Shown here in pieces: positions 4,048-30,982 of a stretch of DNA of 64,000 bases. The stretch comes from Gammaproteobacteria bacterium (GTDB lineage: Bacteria; Pseudomonadota; Gammaproteobacteria; SZUA-152): assembly GCA_032250735.1 (NCBI GenBank), contig JAVVEP010000004.1:1-64000 (forward strand), given 5' to 3'. A model generated the notes under the pieces. The model was not told the origin of the DNA, searched no databases, and was given only the letters and a program-made list of their open reading frames with translations. The stretch's first letter is position 1. The number at the start of each line of letters is the position of its first letter. Position numbers and translations under genes: made by a program.

Positions 4048-4116
4048 CTTAAGGGGTCAGCAGCCTTAAGGTGTCAGCTTAAGGGGTCAGAGCTTAAGCA
4101 AAGCTTAAGGGGTCAG
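4048..4116. repeat. Cluster of 13-bp CTTAAGGGGTCAG repeats
   Basis: Four close copies of CTTAAGGGGTCAG lie at 4048-4060, 4065-4077 (one change), 4078-4090 and 4104-4116. A decayed copy fills 4091-4103, so copies three to five are in 13-bp register. The last copy is the outer part of the left hairpin of the adjacent REP-associated transposase element. A related sequence (CCTAAGGGGTCTG) occurs near 3220. Confidence 0.8.
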
Positions 4117-4888
4117 AGCCCTTTAAGCGGGCCATCTGGCCGACCTCGTCTGCTCTGACCCACCTTTGTCTTTAATTTACGTTCGATCTTTTCCCTGAAA
4201 TGATCATTCCCCAGCGGCGTACCCGTCTGCCATGCCGCGCGGATGTCCTTTAACTGGCTTTCATCAAGGTGGGCCTTAAATAACGTCTTGTAGGCTTCAC
4301 AACGACTGGCCTGAGTCTTGCCGAGGCTGGTATACAATGCATGCCGGGTTATCATGCTGTCATCCTTCCCCTGGGCATTACAGCTGTAACTGCTCCAACG
4401 GTAGTTGGCCGGCGATCTCACCATATCCGCCCGGACGGGATTTAATTCTATATAGCGCATGCAAGCAAGCAAATACTGGTCATCACTGACGAGCGAGGCC
4501 TTAAATCGTCCCTCCCAGATGCTACCGCTGGTGCCATAAGCATGATTAACATAAGGCACATAACGCCTGCCTACATACTGCATCATCCGACTTATGCCAT
4601 CCTTGTCGTTGGGTGTGGCTAGTATATGGATATGATTGCCCATTAAGACATACGCATGAATGGCGCAGTGATACCGGTCAGCCGCCTCTTTCAACCAGTT
4701 TAGGTAGGCCCGATAATCGCTATTTTCAAAAAACACCGGCTCTCGGCTATGCCCCCGCTGAACAATGTGAACGGGGATGTTGGGAAGGAAAAATCTTGGC
4801 TTGCGTGGCATCGCGCCCTCCTGCGTGAAGGAATTCAGTAGAACATACCACCAATTGCTTTTTTCTTAAAGGGCTCTGACCCCTTTAA
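4104..4888. mobile_element. REP-associated transposase element with hairpin ends
   Basis: The transposase gene is bracketed by near-identical 24-bp ends in inverted orientation, 4104-4127 and 4865-4888 (22 of 24 bases agree). Each end can fold: in the right copy TTAAAGGG pairs with CCCTTTAA across a 7-nt loop; the left copy has the same fold with one change. REP hairpins flanking a Y1/HUH transposase are the usual layout of REP/RAYT elements, where the protein recognises the hairpins. No target duplication is evident. Confidence 0.75.
4113..4811 (-). CDS. REP-associated tyrosine transposase (Y1/HUH, IS200-like)
   Basis: A 232-residue single-strand DNA transposase of the RAYT type. The N-terminus has the family opening (PRKPRFFLPN, then HIVQRGH). 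The metal-binding HUH motif is HIHIL at about residues 60-64 (GNHIHIL). The catalytic tyrosine lies in MMQYVGRRYV. The conserved ACMRYIELNPVRADMV and YRWSSY segments follow. The Shine-Dalgarno GGAGGGCG precedes ATG 4811. The last codons and the stop (4113-4115) lie inside the left-end repeat, so the repeat encodes the C-terminal residues. All catalytic motifs are present, so it may be functional. Confidence 0.92.
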   Translation of the reverse strand: MPRKPRFFLPNIPVHIVQRGHSREPVFFENSDYRAYLNWLKEAADRYHCAIHAYVLMGNHIHILATPNDKDGISRMMQYVGRRYVPYVNHAYGTSGSIWEGRFKASLVSDDQYLLACMRYIELNPVRADMVRSPANYRWSSYSCNAQGKDDSMITRHALYTSLGKTQASRCEAYKTLFKAHLDESQLKDIRAAWQTGTPLGNDHFREKIERKLKTKVGQSRRGRPDGPLKGL

Positions 4889-4950
4889 CTCTTTCTTTTA
4901 AATTAGTAACTTATGCTTAACTAAGTGCCATTCCAGTCTGTCCCCTATTA

Positions 4951-5226
4951 TTAATCTGGAGATTTTTTATGGATACCACCAACCCTCGCAACACCTGCCC
5001 AAAGATCGTCCATTTTAGATTTTTCTTTGGCCAGCAATTCCTCAAGTTCTTTAATTCTTTTGTCTTTGGCCGCAAGTTGCTTTTCCATTTTCAGTACAGC
5101 ACGCTGATACTTCGCGGATTGTTCTTGGATTTTAAGATTCTTTTTCTCAAGTTGAAGCTTCAAACGTTCCGTCTCGAAAACACAATTCCGAAGTTTTATC
5201 TCGATGTCAGAGGATGTTAAGCTCAT
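4951..5226 (-). CDS. Integron-cassette protein, short coiled coil, unknown function
   Basis: A 91-residue protein that I do not recognise. From about residue 15 to 70 it is a continuous heptad-like run of Lys, Glu, Gln and Leu (for example KQLAAKDKRIKELEELLAKE), a strong coiled-coil prediction. There is no signal peptide or membrane segment. Its start lies 19 bp after an attC-like site, as expected for a gene cassette. The expected attC after its stop is missing; REP-like sequence and the transposase element occur there instead. Confidence 0.55.
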   Translation of the reverse strand: MSLTSSDIEIKLRNCVFETERLKLQLEKKNLKIQEQSAKYQRAVLKMEKQLAAKDKRIKELEELLAKEKSKMDDLWAGVARVGGIHKKSPD

Positions 5227-5244
5227 AATTTAGTTTTCTTACAC

Positions 5245-5325
5245 ACATAACGTTATTAACAATGGGCGCGCCGCTTTTGGCGCGCCCCAATGAGCGAAGC
5301 GAATGACTTAATTATTTTGTTAGGC
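5245..5325 (-). other. attC-like recombination site 1
   Basis: On the minus strand the site begins with GCCTAAC (5319-5325, R'' core) and ends with GTTATGT (5245-5251, R'-like; many attC sites end GTTATGC). The interior contains the complementary arms GGGCGCGCC/GGCGCGCCC. The 81-bp length is usual for attC. It sits 2 bp after the stop of the gene at 5328 and just before the start at 5226. Confidence 0.65.
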
Positions 5326-5327
5326 AT

Positions 5328-5969
5328 TTATTGAAAAATATATTTTGCTAACACCGCTGCAATAGTACCGCTGCCAATTAATGGAACAAATACATACCTA
5401 ACCCACCAATGAAGTCTATCCTCACCATACTTGACTGATTCAGAATTATTACCTGTCGGTGAAACCAAGCATTTTTGATAAAATTTCTCTACCGTATGCT
5501 CACAAGTCGAATACCAATTGTAAATATCATCAACTTTACTACCGTAAAATGGCACATCAATACAATAACCAACATCTGTTTTATCTGCTGTTATTTCCAC
5601 GTTAAGTTCATTTTTTATGAAATCGACAAATCTAAATACAAAACTACTCACAGATTCTTCCAGTTCCCAGCGTGCATAATCTATATTTAGAGTTATTACT
5701 AACTTACACTGGTTGGACAGCTTGGTGATCCTTACAAAATTTACGCGTTTAAACTCACTCCCGTTGTGAGTAATCCAAAGATGTAGTCGATCAGGGAGAT
5801 CTATGCAGCTTACCCCACTAAAGTAACTTAAATTGCACCTATATTCCTTTGGTGTTCTCTGGCCTGTGGATAATTCACCATAGTATTCATAACCATCTAC
5901 TAACGGATCGTTATGCCAAACTTTAATTGGATAATTTCCGATATGAATTATTGTATGATCACTATCCAT
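5328..5969 (-). CDS. Integron-cassette protein with C-terminal membrane anchor, unknown function
   Basis: A 213-residue protein without recognisable homology. Most of it is a soluble domain rich in Tyr, Trp and Cys. The C-terminus holds one predicted membrane segment (VFVPLIGSGTIAAVLAKYIF) after a WWVRY interface, so it may be a tail-anchored inner-membrane protein. ATG 5969 is preferred over the upstream frame opening at 6014, because it directly follows the GTTAGGC core of an attC-like site and the extension would translate that site. Low GC and attC sites on both sides mark it as a mobile cassette. Confidence 0.6.
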   Translation of the reverse strand: MDSDHTIIHIGNYPIKVWHNDPLVDGYEYYGELSTGQRTPKEYRCNLSYFSGVSCIDLPDRLHLWITHNGSEFKRVNFVRITKLSNQCKLVITLNIDYARWELEESVSSFVFRFVDFIKNELNVEITADKTDVGYCIDVPFYGSKVDDIYNWYSTCEHTVEKFYQKCLVSPTGNNSESVKYGEDRLHWWVRYVFVPLIGSGTIAAVLAKYIFQ

Positions 5970-5975
5970 TGATGT

Positions 5976-6064
5976 GCCTAACGTTTTGCATAAGGGGCGA
6001 TGGATGCGTAGCACACCCGAGGTCCCAGTGAGCGAAAGCGAACGATCTGATGCATTTATTGGGC
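5976..6064 (-). other. attC-like recombination site 2
   Basis: On the minus strand the site runs from GCCCAAT (6058-6064, R''-like) to GTTAGGC (5976-5982, R'), 89 bp. The inner pair ATGCAT/TTATGCA lies next to the outer cores and could form the folded bottom-strand structure. It lies 10 bp after the stop of the gene at 6075 and 6 bp before the start at 5969. Confidence 0.65.
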
Positions 6065-6074
6065 ATGATTGGCG

Positions 6075-6908
6075 CTACCCCCTCTCCAAAGAGCTTTTAT
6101 CCTTAAGCTCAATTGGTGAGGAAAAATGTTTGACATATGGTCCAGTTCGCACATGATTCATTAAACGCCAAAACCACTGTTTAGATACCTCGCTTTCAAA
6201 GCCTTCAGGGTATTCATATTTATAGGAAATGCCATCTTCTCCTTTCCTTAAACATGAATGATATATTGGCTTTAGATATCTCTGTAACCCCCAACGTACA
6301 TTGTTTAACAGCTCGGCCATCCAAGTTCCATAATATATAAAGTAATTCTCATCTAGATGCTCTCGAAAGTCTTCCAAAGCAAGCGGAATAAGCTCAAGAG
6401 GAAAATTATAGTTGTGTTCAGATAATATTTTATGAATTCCTTTAGAAACCCCAGTTAATCTTGAAATATTATGTTTTGAGTGATTTCCCGATATTTTTAA
6501 AAACTCTATTCTCGATACTTCCAATTTGGCCTCTAAGTTCAGGGTAGGCAGCCAAAGTTTTAATGGAGTTTTTAACTCAAGCCAGCTCTGCAATTCAACT
6601 AAAGATCTTTCTAGTTCTTCTACGCTATTATCAATATTAAAACGTTTGCTACTACAAGCCTCATTTAAAACATTAATACATGAACCAGAAATGCCAGTTA
6701 ACTTACTATCTCCTGCTTCTTTAGCAAAATCTAAGAATCGAATTACGAAAAGGGAGCGGTGGATTCTATCCTTAAAATACACCATTGACACGCCAGGTGA
6801 TTGAGAACTTTCCCAAACATCGAGCAACACATGATTAACTATATCGTTTACTGCCTCAAGGCAAATGCAAAGCCCTATTGTTTCCCTTTCTAAAGAATTT
6901 AAATCCAT
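6075..6908 (-). CDS. Integron-cassette protein, 277 residues, unknown function
   Basis: A soluble, mainly helical 277-residue protein with no motif I recognise. It is rich in Leu, Glu and Trp (WLELKTPLKLWLPTLN; YYGTWMAELLNNVRWGLQRYL) and has no signal peptide or membrane segment. The repeated aromatic and charged segments suggest an intracellular helical bundle. It starts 14 bp after one attC-like core and ends 10 bp before the next, the tight packing of a single-gene cassette. Base composition is much AT-richer than the chromosomal genes on either side. Confidence 0.6.
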   Translation of the reverse strand: MDLNSLERETIGLCICLEAVNDIVNHVLLDVWESSQSPGVSMVYFKDRIHRSLFVIRFLDFAKEAGDSKLTGISGSCINVLNEACSSKRFNIDNSVEELERSLVELQSWLELKTPLKLWLPTLNLEAKLEVSRIEFLKISGNHSKHNISRLTGVSKGIHKILSEHNYNFPLELIPLALEDFREHLDENYFIYYGTWMAELLNNVRWGLQRYLKPIYHSCLRKGEDGISYKYEYPEGFESEVSKQWFWRLMNHVRTGPYVKHFSSPIELKDKSSLERG

Positions 6909-6921
6909 GTTCGTTATCTGC

Positions 6922-6992
6922 GCCTAACAACTAAGCTCAGCCGACGACAGGCCCCATCATGGCCTGTCGTCGGCTGGTGCGCCTTGATGGGC
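6922..6992 (-). other. attC-like recombination site 3
   Basis: On the minus strand the site runs from GCCCATC (6986-6992, one mismatch from the usual R'') to GTTAGGC (6922-6928, R'). The interior is a long hairpin in which CAGCCGACGACAGGCC pairs with GGCCTGTCGTCGGCTG. It lies 12 bp after the stop at 7005. Confidence 0.7.
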
Positions 6993-7004
6993 GGGTTTTC
7001 ATTA

Positions 7005-7652
7005 TTATCCCTCCCCAGGGCGATCAAGAACAAAATTATCACCCTCTAGTCTCGTTACATAGTCGTGTAACGATGGGAGAAATCCCTTCGAAACAGGACA
7101 TATAGCGTTCGGATTATGTACAACGTACATGGGCTCGCTACCACCAAACGCGGAATAGCCGTTCAAATCAACCGCCCATATCGCTGAGATTTGCTCAAAT
7201 GCGGGATCTAGGAATGTGTGAGCTGGAACATCGGCACCATTGCGATTTTTCACAAAGGGGCGATGTTGGTAACTTGTCTCGACAGCTTCAAGCGCCTCCT
7301 TATTGATGGTTATCTGAAATGGACCAAAACCGAACGCTGCCTCAGCAGCAAATGGGAACTGACTGATCCCCATAAGCGAAGGAAACGGTCCATGCCGCAA
7401 ACGACAACTATTTACAGCGATAATGTACGCATCTTCTTTGGCGACAATACCAGATGCTAAGTAACCCTCGGGGCGTTTATCGCTACCAAGAAGTCGTTCG
7501 GCCTTCACCTTGATAGCACTAGTCCAGCGAAGAAGAATTTCCTCATGTGGAAAGCTCACTACAGTATTAAGTTGAATATTCAGCCATTCGTCTGGGAGCT
7601 GCACAGGTACTGGACAAACCACCTCAATCCATACCTTTCGTTCACCATCCAT
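7005..7652 (-). CDS. C-terminal part of a probably frameshifted cassette protein
   Basis: A 215-residue frame starting at ATG 7652. Its frame stays open upstream of that ATG and encodes a sequence ending GIGPDFLVMDGERKVWIEVV, which looks like the interior of a domain, not an N-terminus. That suggests the start is artificial and that this frame is the continuation of the gene at 7642-7908 after a one-base shift near 7683. The PDF...WIEVV pattern is faintly like a PD-(D/E)xK fold, but the lysine is absent. An attC-like site follows the stop. Function unknown. Confidence 0.5.
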   Translation of the reverse strand: MDGERKVWIEVVCPVPVQLPDEWLNIQLNTVVSFPHEEILLRWTSAIKVKAERLLGSDKRPEGYLASGIVAKEDAYIIAVNSCRLRHGPFPSLMGISQFPFAAEAAFGFGPFQITINKEALEAVETSYQHRPFVKNRNGADVPAHTFLDPAFEQISAIWAVDLNGYSAFGGSEPMYVVHNPNAICPVSKGFLPSLHDYVTRLEGDNFVLDRPGEG

Positions 7653-7908
7653 AACAAGAAAGTCCGGGCCGATACCTAGATTTAGGGCGTGCTGGAAACT
7701 TCTTGTCGCTCAGCCGTTGAGCAATCAGGGCTTCGGATAAGCACGACCACAACTTGTGCTCTTCTCCAGAAACGAGTTCGCTAACAAACTTTGGATCAGC
7801 TAGCCCTGATTCAACGAATGAGGTACAGGCTCGCACAACCTCGTGACGCCACGCTACACGATTCGGATTTTCACCAGGGAACTTATTTTCGATATAGGTC
7901 TGAATCAT
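7642..7908 (-). CDS. N-terminal part of a probably frameshifted cassette protein
   Basis: An 88-residue frame starting at ATG 7908, three bases after a GTTGGGC core. A TTG six residues earlier would lie inside that core. The first ~75 residues look like a normal helical domain (YIENKFPGENPNRVAWRHEVVRAC). The C-terminal residues after KKF look like out-of-frame translation (PARPKSRYRPGLSCYGW), and the next frame continues sensibly as QHALNLGIGPDF. Together the two frames would give a protein of about 300 residues. A true two-gene cassette with overlapping ends is less likely. Confidence 0.5.
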   Translation of the reverse strand: MIQTYIENKFPGENPNRVAWRHEVVRACTSFVESGLADPKFVSELVSGEEHKLWSCLSEALIAQRLSDKKFPARPKSRYRPGLSCYGW

Positions 7909-7911
7909 GAC

Positions 7912-7918
7912 GCCCAAC
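7912..7918 (-). other. Isolated integron core site (GTTGGGC) at the head of the array
   Basis: GTTGGGC on the minus strand immediately precedes the first cassette start. Upstream sequence (to about 8040) contains a second core-like GTTAGAC (7939-7945) but no long hairpin like the attC-like sites. It could be an attI remnant or a worn attC. No integrase gene is seen within the window. Confidence 0.4.
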
Positions 7919-8151
7919 AGTTACTTATACTGATATCTGTCTAACACCTCTTTACACAGGATTCTGTCTAAATCGATTTGACTGTCCTGGCAAGCTAACA
8001 CAAAGTCTCACTTTAATTAAGGTAATTTTATATTATTTTATTTGCCATGATTGCGTAGGCTCATCCGCTGCAAACGCATCTGATCGCCCGGACGTGGGGA
8101 AAACATATTGAAAAATTGATCCCATCCATCTTATGCAGATTGCGGGGGAGA

Positions 8152-8865
8152 TTATGCCCGCTGCGCGCCCAGCGTGATGTCGTTGAAGCTTTGCACCTGC
8201 GGGTGGGCGGCGGCTTTGTCCGTGGTCTGGTCCCGCACCAGCCAGACGGTCTGCATGCCGGCGCTGCGGGCGGCGTCCAGTTCTGCGCCGATGTCTGACA
8301 GGAACAGGATCTCGTTTGCCGTGGCGCCGATGGCGGTAACGATATTTTGGTAGGAGGCGGGGTCGGTTTTGGCGCCGACCTTAGTGTCAAAGTAACCGCT
8401 AAACAAAGGTGTCAGGTCGCCATAGGGGGTGTGGGCGAACAGCAGCTTTTGCGCGTACACCGAACCCGATGAATAGACGTACAGGCGAATGCCCTGCGCC
8501 TGCCACTGTTGCAGTTGCTGTTTGGCGTCTGCATAGAGGTGTCCCTGGAAATCGCCCTGCCGGTAGCCCGTTTCCCACAGCAGTCCCTGCAGGGTTTTGA
8601 GTGCGGGGATCTTGCGGTCCTGGTCGATCCATTGTTGCAGTTGGGCGATGATGCCTTCCAGATCCAGCGCCTCGCCGACTTCCCGGCGCACGTCATCGAG
8701 TAGCGGCAGGATGGTGTCCTGTTCGGCATGGCGGCGGAGATAGTCGCCGATATGTTCGCGTGCGTAGGGAAACAGCACATCCTTGACAAACGACAGCGAC
8801 GAGGTGGTGCCTTCGATATCGGTGACCACGGCCTTGATCATGGACAGTTGCATCGGCAGCTGCAT
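8152..8865 (-). CDS. mtnC: Enolase-phosphatase E1, MtnC
   Basis: A HAD-superfamily enzyme of the methionine salvage pathway. It enolises and then dephosphorylates 2,3-diketo-5-methylthiopentyl-1-phosphate to give the acireductone used by MtnD. The HAD nucleophile motif is DIEGTT near the N-terminus (VVTDIEGTTSSLSFV). Motif II is in YVYSSGSV, and the C-terminal motif is LFLSDIGAELDAAR. The length of 237 residues is normal. ATG 8865 follows the mtnD stop by 2 bp; ATG 8841 (MIKAVV) is an alternative that fits family starts better. It is the third gene of an mtnB-mtnD-mtnC operon. Confidence 0.95.
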   Translation of the reverse strand: MQLPMQLSMIKAVVTDIEGTTSSLSFVKDVLFPYAREHIGDYLRRHAEQDTILPLLDDVRREVGEALDLEGIIAQLQQWIDQDRKIPALKTLQGLLWETGYRQGDFQGHLYADAKQQLQQWQAQGIRLYVYSSGSVYAQKLLFAHTPYGDLTPLFSGYFDTKVGAKTDPASYQNIVTAIGATANEILFLSDIGAELDAARSAGMQTVWLVRDQTTDKAAAHPQVQSFNDITLGAQRA

Positions 8866-8867
8866 GC

Positions 8868-9428
8868 TCAGGACAGGCCGGCCACAAAGCGGTCCATGTC
8901 CGGGAAGCGGCTGGCGATGTCGCTGCCGGTGAAGTCACCCAGCCAGCCGTCTTCGGTGGTAAACAGGCGGATACATTTGAAGTTAGGGTTCTGGCCCATG
9001 TCAAACCAGTGCGGGGTGTTGGCCGGTACGCTGATCAGGTCGCCCTTTTCACACAGCATCAGGTACACCCGGTCGTTGAGGTGTAAATAGAACAGGCCGC
9101 TGCCGTCGACAAAGAATCGTAGCTCGAAATCTCCATGGCGGTGCTCGGCCAGGAATTTCTGCCGGAACTCGGCCTTTTGCGGATTGTCGGGCCGTAGCGC
9201 CACCACGTCCACCGAGCGAAAGCCGTACTGCTGGTTCAGGCGGTCGATGGCGCCCTGGTAGGCGGTGAGCACTGCCTCCTGCTGGGCGTCATCGGCCAGT
9301 TTTTCCGTGGCCTGCCAGCGTTCAAACTGCACGCCGTGTTCGGCCAGCTGGGCGACGATGCTGTCCAGATCGCTGATCGGCGCCGACACCGGCTGGCCGG
9401 CCTCGTCATAAATTTGCAATACACTCAT
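8868..9428 (-). CDS. mtnD: Acireductone dioxygenase, MtnD
   Basis: A cupin-fold metalloenzyme that oxidises the MtnC product to the 2-keto acid precursor of methionine plus formate (Fe form), or to an off-pathway product with CO (Ni form). The metal-binding set is visible: HRHGDFE and the later TPHWFD. The frame extends up to ATG 9458, which would overlap the mtnB stop as ATGA. ATG 9428 has a better Shine-Dalgarno (AGGGGAT) and matches the usual family start MSVLQIYDE. It is the middle gene of the mtnBDC operon. Confidence 0.94.
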   Translation of the reverse strand: MSVLQIYDEAGQPVSAPISDLDSIVAQLAEHGVQFERWQATEKLADDAQQEAVLTAYQGAIDRLNQQYGFRSVDVVALRPDNPQKAEFRQKFLAEHRHGDFELRFFVDGSGLFYLHLNDRVYLMLCEKGDLISVPANTPHWFDMGQNPNFKCIRLFTTEDGWLGDFTGSDIASRFPDMDRFVAGLS

Positions 9429-9454
9429 CTTGCTTATCCCCTTTTGCGGATCGT

Positions 9455-10075
9455 TCATTGGCGGACGGTTGCGTGCGCGCGCAGGCGCAGCTCACAGTCA
9501 AACAGAAACTCAAAGGCCTCCACGTGGCGCAGCGCGTCCTGCATGCTGTCGCCCCAGGTGTAAAAACCGTGGCCGCGAATCAGATAGCCCGGCGCGTGCT
9601 CCAGCTCGGCGAGACGGGCATCCACTTTTTCGGCCAGGCGGGCGATGTCCTGGTCGTTATCGAACACGGGGATGCGCACCGTGCTCTGGTGGCTGTCGAT
9701 ACCGGGAAAGGCCTTGAGGATTTCATAGTCCTGCAACACCAGCTCGTGGTCACACAGGCGCGACAGCACCGTGGCATTCACCGAGTGCGGGTGCAATACC
9801 ACCTGCGCCTGGGCAAAGCGACGATAGATGTGCACATGCAGCAGGGTCTCGGCGGAGGGGCGACGCCCATCCAGCGAGCGGCCCTGCGCATCGACCTGCA
9901 TGATGTCCCCCTGGCTCAGGTGGCCCTTGTGCACCCCGGACACGGTGATCGCCAGGTTGCCGTCCGCCAGCCGCGCCGAGATGTTGCCGCTGGTGGCGGG
10001 CACCATGTGCTGCGCGTACAGCTGCCGGCCGGCCTCGATCAGCGCCTGCGCGCTGCGCTCAAAATCATTTTTCAC
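9455..10075 (-). CDS. mtnB: Methylthioribulose-1-phosphate dehydratase, MtnB
   Basis: A class II aldolase/adducin-fold zinc enzyme that dehydrates 5-methylthioribulose-1-phosphate in methionine salvage. Seen in the sequence are the N-terminal ATSGNISAR motif, the zinc-site HPHSVN and, near the C-terminus, GHGFYTWG with the third histidine. Its 206 residues are normal for the family. It is the promoter-proximal gene of mtnB-mtnD-mtnC. mtnA and mtnK are not in the window and must be elsewhere if the pathway is complete. Confidence 0.95.
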   Translation of the reverse strand: MKNDFERSAQALIEAGRQLYAQHMVPATSGNISARLADGNLAITVSGVHKGHLSQGDIMQVDAQGRSLDGRRPSAETLLHVHIYRRFAQAQVVLHPHSVNATVLSRLCDHELVLQDYEILKAFPGIDSHQSTVRIPVFDNDQDIARLAEKVDARLAELEHAPGYLIRGHGFYTWGDSMQDALRHVEAFEFLFDCELRLRAHATVRQ

Positions 10076-30415: not shown

Positions 30416-30982
30416 CTAATGCGCGCGTAATAAATGAGCCGTAAGCTTTGCTAATAAAAAATAGAAACCAGAATCGCTTAAAGATGCCAAGCGCTTAATA
30501 TCACCTGATTCTATTGAGGCATGAAGCCAATCAGATCCAATACTCCCAATCATATTAAGATCGACAACATGCGAGGAATCAAGGCCAGGTATAGAAATTA
30601 AACAAATTTTATGCGTTATAAAATTCTTTTTAATCGCATCAGAATGTAAATATTTTTCTACCATCTCAAGCGGAAATAAAGGGGCAAACACATAATTCTT
30701 ATTTCTTAGCGCTTCACCATCCACTGACATATCGCATGTATGCTGCAGCAAAATAAATGGGCAGGGTGGACTTTTACGAACATCGCCGTCACTAAAGAAG
30801 AAAGCAGGCACAGCGTAACAAACATCTCCCTGACTGGGGACATCACGAAGATTCGCAGAATACATCCATTTATGGTCTAAAGCATCTGATGCTAAAAAGG
30901 AGCTAAACTTTGCACGAAGCGAGGGGCTAACACTTGGAAATGCTTCTTGATAGAGTTCTTTGAAAAGCCCATCTTCTGGCAT
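30416..30982 (-). CDS. Unknown protein, third gene of an AT-rich unit
   Basis: A 188-residue soluble protein without signal peptide. The segment PCPFILLQHTCDMSVDG resembles a motif (SQTCDI-like) recurring in uncharacterised accessory-genome proteins, but I cannot assign a fold. It has several conserved-looking Cys and His residues that could bind metal. It follows the 99-residue gene by 16 bp; an 8-bp palindrome (ATAATTAA/TTAATTAT) sits in that gap. Low GC suggests acquisition. Function unknown. Confidence 0.6.
   Translation of the reverse strand: MPEDGLFKELYQEAFPSVSPSLRAKFSSFLASDALDHKWMYSANLRDVPSQGDVCYAVPAFFFSDGDVRKSPPCPFILLQHTCDMSVDGEALRNKNYVFAPLFPLEMVEKYLHSDAIKKNFITHKICLISIPGLDSSHVVDLNMIGSIGSDWLHASIESGDIKRLASLSDSGFYFLLAKLTAHLLRAH

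Follow-up and report, generated by a model that had tools for sequence, protein, structure and literature searches.

A probable detached integron cassette array in a gammaproteobacterial draft genome with an intact integrase elsewhere

Clusters of attC sites lacking an integron integrase (CALINs) are well known. A survey made with IntegronFinder counted 2,961 of them (PMC9024848), and in Xanthomonas they are found away from the integrase gene, intI, in about half of the genomes (PMC12444791). The integrase itself, IntI, is described as acting on CALINs in trans and as inserting cassettes at attG sites (PMC12901181, PMC12444791); for such insertion both papers cite Loot et al. 2024. Integrons have also recently been seen as defence libraries, in work by Darracq 2025, Getz 2025 and Kieffer 2025 as cited in PMC12444791. 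Here a short cassette array is described that occupies 4951-7918 on the minus strand of a 64,000-nucleotide stretch of a draft genome from the gammaproteobacterial lineage SZUA-152 (assembly GCA_032250735.1, contig JAVVEP010000004.1). This whole stretch is called the window. The array is of a familiar kind; its cargo, and the scatter of cassettes over the genome, are less ordinary.

From its sequence, the array is very probably a CALIN: a short run of cassettes detached from the integron platform, in a genome that has an intact IntI elsewhere. The probability of this is put at roughly 0.93. A CALIN takes two or more clustered attC sites in one orientation, and here there are three, all on the minus strand. 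A complete integron has intI next to its array, and a search with TIGR02249 found no integron integrase in or adjacent to this one. The only match above the TIGR02249 cut-off in the genome is at C4:170670-171608 (491.5 bits, no stops). C4 is the contig of 173,654 bases of which the window is C4:1-64000, so that array and intI share a contig, with about 163 kb between them; intI lies beside recG. The sequence-only reading of the window had claimed attC sites without an adjacent integrase, and had allowed that the chromosome might carry intI. Both were right: intI is there, intact, and two or more attC sites lie next to it.

Read along the minus strand from 7917 to 4951, the array consists of a frameshifted gene (gene 1, 7005-7917), attC site 3 (6922-6992), a gene of 277 codons (6075-6908), attC site 2 (5976-6064), a gene of 213 codons (5328-5969), attC site 1 (5245-5325) and an open reading frame (ORF) of 91 codons (4951-5226). 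The gaps from stop codon to attC, read directly from the sequence, are 12, 10 and 2 nt, and those from attC to the next start are 13, 6 and 18 nt. The GC content is 41.4%, versus 57.4% for the window, and the cassettes of the genome's main array have 39.0%. At 7912-7918 (minus strand) a GTTGGGC core of the R' type abuts gene 1. This core, and the placing of sites 2-12 bp after a stop and a few bases before the next start, had already been pointed out from the sequence.

The attC sites were scored with covariance models. These were adopted because simpler methods did not discriminate: a regular-expression scan for cores plus a fold was unspecific, with 249 candidate pairs in the window, and with a hand-made arm-pairing score site 3 alone exceeded the threshold. 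The models were built in this analysis and are not IntegronFinder's own, and their E-values are rough. Model R1 comes from 14 aligned attC sites beside integron integrases in this genome and its relatives, with the window sequence excluded. Model R2 comes from 33 attC sites, including plasmid aadA5/dfrA17 sites and sites of genome G177, and none from the window. Both were run on both strands of the full 64 kb with filters off. As a positive control, R1 gave 27.7 bits for the known class 1 attC of aadA5 on a plasmid and 21.7 bits for that of dfrA17, values similar to those of the window sites.

Site 1 (R'' GCCTAAC, R' GTTATGT) is the best match in the window under either model, at 26.6 bits (E=3.5e-4) in R1 and 23.6 bits in R2. 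Site 2 (R'' GCCCAAT, R' GTTAGGC) comes second in both, at 17.1 bits (E=0.078) and 18.9 bits. Site 3 (R' GTTAGGC) was not detected in the R1 scan of the window, and is third in R2 at 15.1 bits, all three being on the minus strand. Its E-value in R2 is 9.7e-4 over the 201 bases around the site, and its opposite (plus) strand scores 2.6 bits. It aligns with the attC of aadA5 and with one attC of G177. With R2 and these alignments, it was ruled out that site 3 is something other than attC, or an attC in the opposite orientation. It is accepted because the top three R2 matches coincide with three consecutive intergenic gaps. The coordinates first proposed for the three sites are thus exact, and the covariance search that had been suggested as a check yields a match at every one.

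Some results weigh against a CALIN. Site 3 has a degenerate R'' box (GCCCATC) and is weak alone, with E=0.31 for the window. Sites 1 and 2 score well below the attC sites of the main array (54-62 bits), and a scan of the window found no attC after the 91-codon ORF, the last of the array. It could be argued that this is an AT-rich genomic island in which intergenic hairpins, such as terminators or repetitive extragenic palindromic (REP) type palindromes, merely resemble attC. The unspecific core-plus-fold scan would leave room for this, and site 1 also scores as terminator-like. However, models trained elsewhere select exactly the three named sites in 64 kb, and relatives of both the 277-codon gene and gene 1 are flanked by attC in other genomes. 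This refutes the idea, which keeps a very small probability. It is just as improbable that a foreign piece of integron was joined to the contig by assembly or binning. The genome is a 3.43 Mb draft of 61 contigs with 2% contamination, but the array, although only 5 kb from a contig end, is inside a long contig that also carries intI, and ordinary genes flank it continuously on both sides.

Evidence from the cargo concerns the 277-aa protein. Among 84,980 genomes scanned, 60 relatives turned up, some of them in Marinobacter, Halomonas, Reinekea, Marinomonas, Nitrosomonas, Planctomycetota, Acidobacteria and Nitrospira. With R2, an attC was found directly beside the relative in 11 of these 60 foreign loci, and on both sides in 4. 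The gaps between gene and attC are 2-41 nt, with one exception of 101 nt, and all attC matches at the foreign loci (25/25) share the strand of the gene. At several further loci R' and R'' cores can be seen by eye. In the window, the attC lies 10 nt past the stop of the gene. Judging by these sequences, the gene is a travelling integron cassette that has moved between bacterial phyla, because attC stands beside its relatives in 11 foreign loci and on the same strand. Finding these genes in fixed order but without attC in distant relatives had been named in advance as an outcome that would speak against an array; in the distant relatives attC is present beside the gene. Closer by, the array genes are patchy, with relatives in few of the 274 genomes of the class that were searched. 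Only 2 of those encode a relative of the 277-aa protein, 54% and 50% identical to it.

The 277-aa protein has no match in Pfam, NCBIfam or PADLOC. A single SAVED match among 30 relatives, and one Rpb5 match, were judged to be chance. AlphaFold2, given 30 sequences, produced a model with a pLDDT of 90.3 and a pTM of 0.89. With this model the best Foldseek E-value was 0.61 in the PDB and 0.11 among viral models, and a sequence profile found nothing credible in the PDB. A new fold is a lead suggested by the predicted structure, as compared with the PDB and viral models only. Spread over several phyla, and with a confident predicted fold that has no match, the gene is a promising candidate for an accessory protein family that would be new and may serve in phage defence. 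A Lys-His-Asn motif at residues 145-147 is invariant.

Gene 1 consists of two ORFs, 7917-7642 and 7652-7005, with a frameshift near 7690 (region 7642-7700) that the sequence-only reading did not mention. Its relatives are intact in one frame. The frameshift may be real decay or a sequencing error. Searched as two separate pieces, the gene has no match in Pfam or NCBIfam, and its C-terminal piece matches PD-T7-5 of PADLOC weakly (E=0.02). A full-length relative of 298 aa, in locus L068 of the distantly related genome G177, matches PD-T7-5 with E=1.9e-15 over 187 residues. In L068 this relative is flanked by attC at 7329-7388 and at 8292-8360, and is followed by a SIR2-like cassette, in a small array (7329-9504) where each cassette is ended by an attC. 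Through this relative, the family of gene 1 resembles PD-T7-5; gene 1 probably encodes a nuclease-type defence protein.

The other two proteins have no Pfam or NCBIfam match either. For the 213-aa protein, which has a hydrophobic C-terminus, no relatives were found in the genomes searched, and a structure prediction from its sequence without relatives was unusable (pLDDT 34). The 91-aa protein is coiled-coil-like and has no relatives in 368 other genomes of the class. Its ORF is either the last cassette, minus its attC, or flanking host DNA. The earlier claim that all cassette proteins are unrecognised thus stands for Pfam and NCBIfam, but fails for gene 1, whose family is recognisable in PADLOC through the full-length relative. 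The cargo as a whole appears to be accessory and is probably, in part, phage defence.

The genome's own IntI shares 52-54% identity with integron integrases of plasmids, IntI1 and IntI3 among them. Upstream of intI, the first cassette gene of the main array comes after a GTTAGAT core, and two attC sites then follow, at 62 and 54 bits. The bases that immediately precede an apparent insertion-sequence end on C4, and those that immediately follow this end on C24, have AAAATCAA in common. Its presence on both sides resembles a target duplication. C24 probably continues the main array, because AAAATCAA is shared across the insertion-sequence end as a target duplication would give. An attC-like site is found at 2507-2572 of C24 (23.1 bits). 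As regards extent, the genome's own integron covers L015 10659-13577 (C4:170658-173576) and probably L204 1-2572 (C24), and C4 ends beyond the main array in an apparent insertion-sequence end.

Judging by covariance matches, there are at least three further stray cassette loci in this genome. The full covariance model was applied to part of the genome. A genome search with a less sensitive first pass recovered none of the window sites with R1 and only site 2 with R2, so that the stray attC loci counted here are a minimum. C32 (L108) has a pair of minus-strand attC sites, one at 5573-5518 (29.6 bits) and the other at 3919-3867 (18.9 bits). They enclose a gene for an anti-phage reverse transcriptase of the DRT8 type (PADLOC Drt8, E=1.6e-164), and there is no local integrase. 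On C5 an attC at 30564-30649 (34 bits) lies between genes for 182 and 189 aa, the first of which matches the defence candidate PDC-S67 (E=1.6e-13). On C25 the attC is at 4939-5019 (21.2 bits), and 42 bp of it are 90% identical to site 2 of the window.

The surroundings of these loci also show some features of their own. The cassette stretch of C32 (L108 3137-5573) is bracketed by REP palindromes. That of C5 (L202 834-2262, about 29.8-31.3 kb) is bracketed by two copies of a REP-like repeat of about 100 bp. On C25 (L016 2789-5019) the attC comes after a 272-aa gene without a recognised family, and a gene for a Y1 transposase like the REP-associated tyrosine transposases (RAYTs) adjoins.

Such a gene is also next to the window array. 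After the 91-codon ORF, again on the minus strand, comes a Y1 transposase gene of the RAYT type (4811-4113; Pfam Y1_Tnp 9.4e-13). It also matches NCBIfam REP_Tyr_transpos, at 7.3e-21 and below that family's cut-off. A REP-type palindrome, AAAGGGCTCTGACCCCTTT, lies between the array and this gene at 4868-4886, with a second copy on the far side of the gene at 4106-4124. Allowing at most 2 mismatches, AAAGGGSTCWGASCCCTTT occurs in 15 places in the genome, and in none when it is read backwards. Four loci that bear attC hold 9 of the 15 copies of this palindrome (AAAGGGGTCAGAGCCCTTT): the window 2, C32 4, C5 2 and C24 1. This is seemingly more than would be expected of unrelated elements. Some of the loci with attC and palindrome owe their inclusion to the palindrome itself. 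In 604 kb that were chosen without reference to it, three loci have the palindrome, and two of these have attC sites. This may be a real link, or both may gather in dispensable DNA. An association of REP elements and cassettes would be new if it holds, and is preliminary.

How the array arrived is less certain than what it is. The GTTGGGC at 7912-7918 likely marks where host DNA meets the first cassette (G/TTGGGC). It does not resemble the attI region of this genome's own integron; attI sites vary from lineage to lineage. The likeliest route, though held tentatively, is that IntI inserted cassettes at this GTTGGGC as a genomic site of the attG type, outside any attI. This is favoured because the 5' edge is without attI likeness or intI remnants and because there are several stray loci. 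Next comes the possibility, an unlikely one, that a complete integron once stood here, of which intI and attI have since gone. A relic of this sort would suit the frameshifted gene 1 and the last ORF without attC. Yet the 234 bp of non-coding DNA between array and mtnC hold no intI remnant and no attI likeness, and the single IntI that passes the cut-off is the distant one next to recG. Ranked third, and more doubtful still, is that a REP/RAYT system or an insertion sequence, and not IntI, carried or trapped the cassettes here. The palindrome copies at the four cassette loci speak for it, as do the palindrome-flanked RAYT-like gene adjoining the array and the Y1 gene near the C25 locus. But the right edge of the array lacks a palindrome, dispensable DNA may simply gather REP elements and cassettes alike, and part of the palindrome loci were chosen for carrying the palindrome.

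Established integron biology suggests how IntI might act on the array. The bottom strand of attC would fold into a hairpin, and IntI would cut the R' box (G/TTRRRY). The distant IntI could then in principle excise, shuffle or add cassettes at the window array in trans. RAYT would likewise act on folded single-stranded hairpins, and a paper on REP transposases likens their hairpin recognition to that of IntI; no link of REP to cassettes is reported there (PMC8266576). That the RAYT system helps to move, trap or insert cassettes, as a second spreading route independent of the integrase, would be a long shot. Expression of the cassettes would be weak, or would come from transcription running on from the mtn genes upstream on the minus strand, or from promoters inside the cassettes. 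It would depend on these because neither an attI nor a promoter can be recognised at the 5' edge; no site resembling a promoter exceeded chance.

A few observations concern the edges and neighbours of the array. Between array and mtnC, the sequence at 7935-8000 resembles an insertion-sequence end by eye, with no second copy among the stretches of this genome that were fetched. Between the last ORF and the palindrome, 4890-4944 includes 44 bp that match the left end of contig C22 without a difference. A second repeated motif there, GTGCCATTCCAGTCTGTCCCC, is also present on several contigs. A scan with Rfam found two tRNAs and nothing else. The neighbouring mtnC and GNAT/C39 genes are absent from the 11 genus-mates searched, several of which are incomplete.

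The genome is a clean case of cassettes scattered over a chromosome that has an intact IntI. It is therefore suited to asking whether IntI, in nature, also puts cassettes at sites other than attI. The recent view that integrons are defence libraries agrees with the DRT8 cassette on C32 and with the PD-T7-5-like gene.

Compared with CALINs as IntegronFinder defines them (PMC9024848), there is no essential difference; the window array is small, its first gene is frameshifted and its last ORF is without attC. The likeness to PD-T7-5 of PADLOC lies in the full-length relative of gene 1, which matches it, whereas the copy in the window is frameshifted. An attG insertion would fit the first cassette of the window, whose start is a G/TTRRRY junction that shows no likeness to attI. 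The CALINs of Xanthomonas (PMC12444791) are similar in that clusters stray while intI stays at a fixed place. They differ in that they belong to another lineage and have intI beside ilvD, whereas here it is beside recG and several of the stray loci adjoin REP palindromes.

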